43,403 nt of DNA from Nitrospina sp. (GTDB lineage Bacteria > Nitrospinota > Nitrospinia > Nitrospinales > JACRGP01). The position numbers and the translations under genes were made by a program. This document shows, one piece after another, positions 15,040-15,917 of this stretch (positions within the stretch are counted from its first letter, which is position 1; each line of letters opens with the position of its first letter). Under the pieces are notes generated by a model. It had not been told where the DNA came from. It ran no database searches and saw only the letters and a program-made list of their open reading frames with translations. The DNA lies in NCBI GenBank assembly GCA_024648695.1, contig JACAVV010000038.1, positions 1 to 43,403 on the forward strand. The letters are read 5' to 3'.

Positions 15040-15067
15040 CCCTCTCCCGAGAGGAGAGGGGATTTTT
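15040..15067 (+). terminator. Rho-independent terminator after serS (within repeat copy 3)
   Basis: An 8-base perfect stem, CCCTCTCC (15040-15047) with GGAGAGGG (15053-15060), has a 5-base loop and is followed by GATTTTTAT. The same sequence belongs to the dispersed repeat family: its complement reads GGATAAAAATC then the stem, like copies 1 and 5. The repeat thus seems to double as a terminator. Confidence 0.65.
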
Positions 15068-15122: not shown

Positions 15123-15917
15123 ATGAAAAATCTTATTAAAAATTCACTCCTTTTCACAATGTTTCTTTTCCTTACAGCCTTCACTCAGGCTCCAGGAGAG
15201 GTACCACCCGCTCAGGACGAAACCTTGTTCAAGGAATCCAAAGGTGTCGATCCTGAACGTGCGAAAGAACAATTGCAGGCAATTTACCTCAAGGCCAATA
15301 AAACACAGACCCTGTTCTGCGCCTGCGATTTCGATGAAGGCAAACAGCTCGATCCCGCAAAATGCGGTTACACGCCTAAAAGGGCTAAAGGAAAAAGGGC
15401 GAGAACGATGGATTGGCAACCGGCGATGACGCCGTTTCAGTATGGGAAAGTTTTAAAATGCTGGAGCGAGCGGATTTGCAAGCGTCATACAGGGCGTCCA
15501 TTCGCAGGACCTAAATGTTGTGAGAAAGTGGAACCGGTGTTCATGCGAATGCAGGCGGATATGCACAATTTATTTCCCGTCATCGGCGAGCTGGCGAGGG
15601 ACCGGGCGAACAAGGAGTTTAGCGAGATCAAGGGAGAAAAACGCAAATACGGTCAATGCGATTTCGAAGTGCGCCGACAAAGTGCAGAGCCGGCAGAAAA
15701 CATTCGCGGTGATATTGCCCGCGCCTATTTTTACATGTCGCAACAGTATAAGGTGCCGCTGAGAAAAAAGCAGGAAGACCTGTTCATCCATTGGCATGTG
15801 ACCGATCCGCCGGACCGCTGGGAAATGGACAGAAACTCGGCCATCGAAGAAATCCAGGGCAACCGCAACCCCTTCATCGACCACCCCGAATTGGCCGAGC
15901 GGGTGAAAGATTTTTAG
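15123..15917 (+). CDS. Endonuclease I (EndA/NucM) family protein lacking catalytic Glu-His
   Basis: The 264-residue exported protein (hydrophobic signal at about 6-22) aligns along its whole length with E. coli periplasmic endonuclease I. Shared landmarks are the Cys-x-Cys (66, 68), CGY (81-83), FQYG...CW (105-114), DMHNL (146-150), GELxxDRxN (155-163), YGQC (176-179), IARAYFYM (198-205) and QGNxNP (245-250). In active enzymes the beta-beta-alpha-metal motif reads WEHVVPA, with Glu binding metal and His as general base (Glu79/His80 in Vvn). Here the aligned residues are Gln99-Pro100 in DWQPAM, so both are lost while the metal-site Asn149 and the cysteines remain. The reading frame is intact. 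It is probably a non-catalytic relative, perhaps DNA-binding; a re-wired active site is less likely. Confidence 0.85.
   Translation: MKNLIKNSLLFTMFLFLTAFTQAPGEVPPAQDETLFKESKGVDPERAKEQLQAIYLKANKTQTLFCACDFDEGKQLDPAKCGYTPKRAKGKRARTMDWQPAMTPFQYGKVLKCWSERICKRHTGRPFAGPKCCEKVEPVFMRMQADMHNLFPVIGELARDRANKEFSEIKGEKRKYGQCDFEVRRQSAEPAENIRGDIARAYFYMSQQYKVPLRKKQEDLFIHWHVTDPPDRWEMDRNSAIEEIQGNRNPFIDHPELAERVKDF

Follow-up and report, generated by a model that had tools for sequence, protein, structure and literature searches.

The window analysed here (the whole stretch of 43,403 nucleotides from a Nitrospina sp. contig) carries, at positions 15123 to 15917 of the forward strand, a complete gene for a putative pseudo-nuclease of the EndA fold (P0001). 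Its reading frame starts with ATG and encodes 264 residues with no internal stops. Upstream lie gyrB, gyrA, a gene for a TPR protein, and serS, an arrangement that is common across the order, and downstream follow the gene of a thiamine-diphosphate enzyme and then CorA and MscS-like genes. Between serS and the gene, a terminator-like hairpin with a T-run in both directions (positions 15040 to 15060, a consensus match only) suggests that there is no read-through from serS. In two genomes of the same family (G002 and G003), the region after serS is found without the EndA gene, which was thus inserted or lost locally. The G+C and GC3 of the gene resemble those of its neighbours.

The endonuclease I scaffold

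Endonuclease I is the textbook example of an exported bacterial DNase. Judged by homology and predicted fold, the window protein is a full-length member of this family (Endonuclease_1, EndA/Vvn). The Pfam profile PF04231 matches it with E=3.7e-29 and 102.6 bits (curated cut-off 25), and a sequence search of the PDB returned 1oup, 1ouo, 2vnd, 2g7e, and 2pu3 as the best hits with E-values of about 1e-35 (3e-35 for 1oup), in line with the 264-residue endonuclease I homologue that the initial annotation had proposed from the sequence. The same annotation had suggested a structure prediction, and the AlphaFold2 model (built on a 60-sequence alignment) indeed adopts the EndA fold, with a pLDDT of 88.8 and a pTM of 0.82. 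When this model was compared with the PDB by Foldseek, the only matches were 2pu3, 2g7f, 2vnd, 2g7e, 1oup, and 1ouo (TM 0.87-0.89 by target), and no fold other than endonuclease I was matched. As canonical enzymes are part of the model's alignment, its fold is partly borrowed, so that the model speaks for compatibility with the EndA fold and is no independent proof of it.

The protein is laid out as a signal-peptide-like stretch followed by the endonuclease I domain. Residues ~1-22 (MKNLIKNSLLFTMFLFLTAFTQA; 15123 to 15188, forward strand) look by eye like a probable signal peptide, which agrees with the secretion that had been claimed earlier; the AlphaFold2 model has a helix at residues 10-17 and a low pLDDT before residue 40. 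Directly before the former active-site strand runs a basic stretch, PKRAKGKRAR (residues 85-94; 15375 to 15404, forward strand). The sequence motifs that had been listed, namely CGY, DMHNL, YGQC, and QGNxNP (here QGNRNP), are all present, and DMHN itself (residues 146-149; 15558 to 15569, forward strand) is kept across the family. The C-terminal half (residues 195-264, from RGDIARAYFYM to QGNRNPFIDHPELAERVKDF; 15705 to 15914, forward strand) is the best-conserved part in relatives that lack the active site. The statement that the family's cysteines are kept holds for six of the seven Vvn cysteines in the aligned region (66, 68, 81, 113, 133, and 179) but not for the WEC cysteine, which is a Met; two additional ones (119 and 132) bring the total to eight.

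The closest known systems are Vvn, the periplasmic endonuclease I of Vibrio vulnificus (1ouo, 1oup), and the EndA enzymes of V. cholerae and Aliivibrio (2g7e, 2vnd, 2pu3). At ~35% identity and the above TM of 0.87-0.89, they share with the window protein most of the cysteines, DMHN/DLHN, RGxIAR, QGNxNPF, and a probable export. They differ from it in having E79, H80, R99, and N127, all of which are replaced in the window protein, and in lacking the extra loop that holds its two added cysteines.

Replacement of the catalytic residues

In Vvn, the metal is bound by Glu79 and Asn127, His80 acts as the general base, and Arg99 makes contact with the scissile phosphate (PMC5305256, PMC5758888). The former active-site strand and the next turn of the window protein (residues 98-108; 15414 to 15446, forward strand) read WQPAMTPFQYG instead of WEHVVPAWQFG, and the register with Vvn is ungapped throughout W98-Q99-P100-A101-M102-T103-P104-F105-Q106-Y107-G108. 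Q99 and P100 (15417 to 15422, forward strand; codons at W98-Q99-P100 TGG CAA CCG) thereby take the places of Glu79 and His80, the exchange of Glu-His for Gln-Pro that the initial annotation had recognised. It had missed the other two, namely P130 (15510 to 15512, forward strand) for Arg99, a column with Arg in 59 of 59 canonical rows, and A158 (15594 to 15596, forward strand) for Asn127, so that all four catalytic residues are replaced.

These replacements are not scattered at random over the conserved positions. Among the 59 canonical homologues, 43 columns are conserved at 90% or more, and the window protein deviates at 12 of them, all four catalytic columns included (hypergeometric P=0.004 for their enrichment). 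Five further deviations (Y65F, E97D, P103T, A104P, and S162A) lie near the catalytic positions in the sequence or are known second-shell positions, and 31 of 38 other strongly conserved positions are retained. A frameshift or sequencing error behind WQPAMTP can be ruled out, as no gap interrupts the register on either side of it and, for several codons, a single base change would not account for the difference. The same goes for a private mutation of an otherwise intact enzyme, since R99 and N127 are gone as well and sister proteins have also lost the site.

With both metal ligands, the general base, and the phosphate-clamping Arg lost, no DNA hydrolysis is expected by the beta-beta-alpha-metal mechanism. 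We are highly confident that the known mechanism of endonuclease I is not open to the window protein; the earlier description of a non-cleaving relative is thus almost certainly right as far as the normal catalytic mechanism is concerned. The protein also reaches only 143 bits against the NCBIfam equivalog for deoxyribonuclease I (NF011716), whose cut-off is 372. On the strength of this score and the four catalytic features, it should not be called an endonuclease.

Outside the phylum, the acid-His pair is kept without exception in the 29 homologues found by queries without motif preference. These control sequences comprise the first IMG/VR scan (19 of 19 loci with an acidic residue followed by His, two pairs being near-identical), the plasmid matches (7 of 7), and three Pseudomonas loci (3 of 3). 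A second viral scan gave 63 further WEH/WDH examples, which were left out of the control because the search pattern itself contained WEH. Glu79 has been described as not conserved in endonuclease I homologues of Bdellovibrio and other former Deltaproteobacteria (PMC3593177). In that group, however, Asn127 is conserved and the cysteines are not, which makes it another subfamily, and its members were not described as dead enzymes.

Relatives in the same order

Homologues of the subfamily occur in 26 of the 61 genomes searched (the same order and its nearest relatives), and none was found outside the order among 77 genomes of the phylum. Of the 26 full-length members in the order, that of the window included, a single one has an intact four-residue site, namely L005 of genome G013. 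None of the other 25 retains more than two of these residues, their replacements vary, and N127 is missing from every member except that of G013. At the Glu-His positions the relatives carry VH, AS, VA, DR, ML, KS, and others, whereas Gln-Pro occurs solely in the window protein, so that there is no sign of selection for Gln-Pro and the common feature is loss rather than a new motif. The initial annotation had inferred a conserved, non-cleaving relative and had suggested a check on whether Gln-Pro is conserved: conservation holds for the loss, as 25 of 26 members lack at least two catalytic residues and purifying selection is seen wherever it can be measured, but not for Gln-Pro as such.

Most of these proteins belong to family f2. 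Its 23 members resemble the window protein in having lost the site while keeping the scaffold and the C-terminal tail; Asn127 is absent from all 23, Glu79 from 21, and His80 from 10. They differ from it in their replacements (VH, AS, VA, ML, KS), in a shorter N127 region, and in an invariant His (23 of 23) at the position of the second-shell Tyr43 of Vvn, which is window position 65 and a Phe in the window protein. This His could belong to a new metal site, in f2 only. At the four catalytic sites, the protein of family f4 (L009) carries Asp-Arg, Trp, and Lys. Two proteins of genus g13 keep Glu-His while Arg99 and Asn127 are gone, which suggests that the active site was eroded stepwise.

L005 of G013 is the nearest homologue found (50% identity). 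Its loop, cysteine pattern, and C-terminal tail are those of the window protein, whereas its four catalytic residues are intact and an SH3-like part is added at its N-terminus (Pfam SH3_3, below the cut-off). The initial annotation had reasoned that Glu-His in close relatives would point to a private mutation; the nearest homologue does carry it, which counts in part against the annotation, yet loss of the site is common in the order. What is private to this genome is the exact pair Gln-Pro, while the loss of catalysis runs through the lineage and predates this genome.

In a gene tree built without the four catalytic columns, L009 is outermost and the intact L005 comes next; the window protein follows as the sister (91/80) of the f2 clade (100/100), so that the intact protein is nested within the set without the site. 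Read literally, this implies at least two losses (f4; f1+f2) or a separate acquisition of L005. However, a constraint that groups all proteins without the site, and thus a single loss, is not rejected (p-AU 0.126), and the branching order of the four families is not fixed in the GyrB+SerS species tree, so that one loss as well as several would fit.

The gene is absent from four genomes of the window's family and from many f2 genomes as well, which marks it as dispensable, and G059 holds broken copies of it. Eight f2 loci (among L129-L139) have the gene divergent to msrP (MsrP match of 410 bits), which makes a shared promoter region possible; the window does not share this arrangement. In several of these msrP loci, a pentapeptide-repeat gene lies on the other side. 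Genome G007 encodes a paralogue (L032; contig C35, 564-812 and upstream) without the N-terminal nuclease part and its cysteines, of which only the C-terminal half is left (DMHNLF to NRNPFIDYPELAERIVNF). Genome G033 carries, besides a subfamily member without the active site, a second and short endonuclease I homologue (L038/L031; contig C26) that has VEHVLP and appears intact.

The window's own genome has another endonuclease I domain (L002; contig C1, ~258600-259060), a canonical one (CEHSVPQSWF) of another subfamily that is fused to a trypsin-like peptidase (PF13365). As Glu-His is kept in this domain, an active enzyme of the wider family is probably still encoded in the genome. A Sulfurimonas plasmid has an endonuclease I gene directly ahead of a serine protease gene, and the two cases hint at a recurring protease-nuclease pairing. 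A decayed C-terminal endonuclease I fragment with a stop (L003; contig C6, ~84800-84920) lies near an IS3-type transposase.

Possible roles for the retained scaffold

No close relative of the window gene was present among the genomes searched, and the evidence for selection therefore comes from more distant ones. Pairs of f2 genes have dN/dS values of 0.10-0.23, and other pairings reach up to 0.28, whereas the genes around them in these loci mostly have 0.05-0.16; constraint is thus present but looser than normal. The 23 f2 proteins share 54 invariant columns. Conservation is unevenly spread over them: the former N127 helix region (155-172) is the least conserved (mean entropy of 2.48 bits vs 1.39 in the canonical set) and the C-terminal 20 residues are the most conserved (0.38 vs 1.69), where, as the sets are unequal in depth and divergence, only the contrast between regions is meaningful. 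On the branch of the window gene itself (0.7 changes per site), neutrality over its whole length would predict ~9 nonsense changes and the gene has none, although a loss of constraint in the last seventh of the branch may be compatible with this. Mainly on the basis of the relatives, we find it likely that the window protein is kept for some function, which would very probably be other than the cutting of DNA.

Which function this might be can be approached from what remains. The disulfide-rich endonuclease I scaffold is kept after the loss of all four catalytic residues, and it would have been retained for binding. The likeliest ligand would be extracytoplasmic nucleic acid, which basic residues would hold in the old cleft without its being cut. 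Such binding might serve to retain or sense extracellular DNA, to protect it, or to feed another nuclease. K48 (15264 to 15266, forward strand), the equivalent of the phosphate-contacting Lys28 of Vvn (role from PMC5758888), is retained together with W114 and K131, the counterparts of the DNA-contacting W94 and K100, and the net charge is +8 (+7 in Vvn), which make nucleic-acid binding plausible. On the other hand, the equivalent of W85 is now F, R99 is lost, and the net charge of the relatives ranges from -6 to +11. Judging from these residues, nucleic-acid binding is a plausible guess with about an even chance of being right, and we give similar weight to the reading as a whole, i.e., an exported pseudo-nuclease that retains its scaffold and may bind nucleic acid without cutting it.

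The repurposed scaffold could also bind a protein or another envelope ligand instead of nucleic acid, with the C-terminal half and its tail (FIDxPExxERVxDF) as the conserved surface. This is rather unlikely but deserves consideration, since conservation in relatives without the site has moved away from the active site and towards the C-terminal half, the G007 paralogue has lost its whole N-terminal nuclease part and kept precisely this half, and neither net charge nor the DNA-contact positions are conserved across f2. However, the tail is already found in the intact G013 protein; it is thus older than the loss of catalysis, and its role may be structural only. Furthermore, there is no known partner gene, and MsrP is a neighbour in only part of f2.

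A decaying gene, whose product lost catalysis and now drifts without function, would account for the patchy presence, the broken G059 copies, the decayed EndA fragment beside the transposase, and the loosened constraint. We judge it improbable, as it sits poorly with an intact reading frame, an export signal (by eye), and eight cysteines, as well as with the dN/dS of 0.10-0.28 in relatives without the site, their invariant columns, and the missing stops (the last seventh of the branch excepted). Even less probable is a protein that is still a hydrolase because another metal site or base took over (e.g., H148 or H225, or the His at Vvn position 43 in f2). In f2, this His and DMHN are invariant and H80 survives in 13 of 23 proteins, but the window protein has Phe at position 43 and so lacks the new His, its histidines 122, 148, 223, 225, and 254 are part of the ancestral structural DMHN or distant from the motif in sequence, and N127 is lost in every member but one. 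Finally, the roles put forward by the initial annotation, namely a DNA-uptake receptor, a (biofilm) matrix protein, or a decoy of the immunity type (against foreign nucleases), are scarcely credible. They found no specific support beyond what could generally be expected of an EndA fold that is exported and does not cut: the gene stands alone between serS and the thiamine-enzyme gene, and neither in the window nor as a recurrent neighbour in relatives is a nuclease, secretion, competence, or matrix gene found next to it.

Returning to the exported pseudo-nuclease, we tentatively propose, at somewhat less than even confidence for the proposal taken together, that the order holds a vertically kept, exported EndA-fold family in which activity was lost, perhaps repeatedly, and a new non-catalytic binding role came under selection; that the window protein is the member with all four catalytic residues gone and DNA-contact residues remaining; and that this nuclease-less family is undescribed. 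The literature searched contained no paper on Nitrospinota and endonuclease I, nor on dead EndA proteins. The annotation as endonuclease or deoxyribonuclease I, which stems from profile matches, is probably wrong for the whole group. A lineage that keeps the protein and discards its chemistry is a natural separation of DNA cutting from whatever other role the scaffold may have, and the intact relative at 50% identity (G013) is a ready active control.
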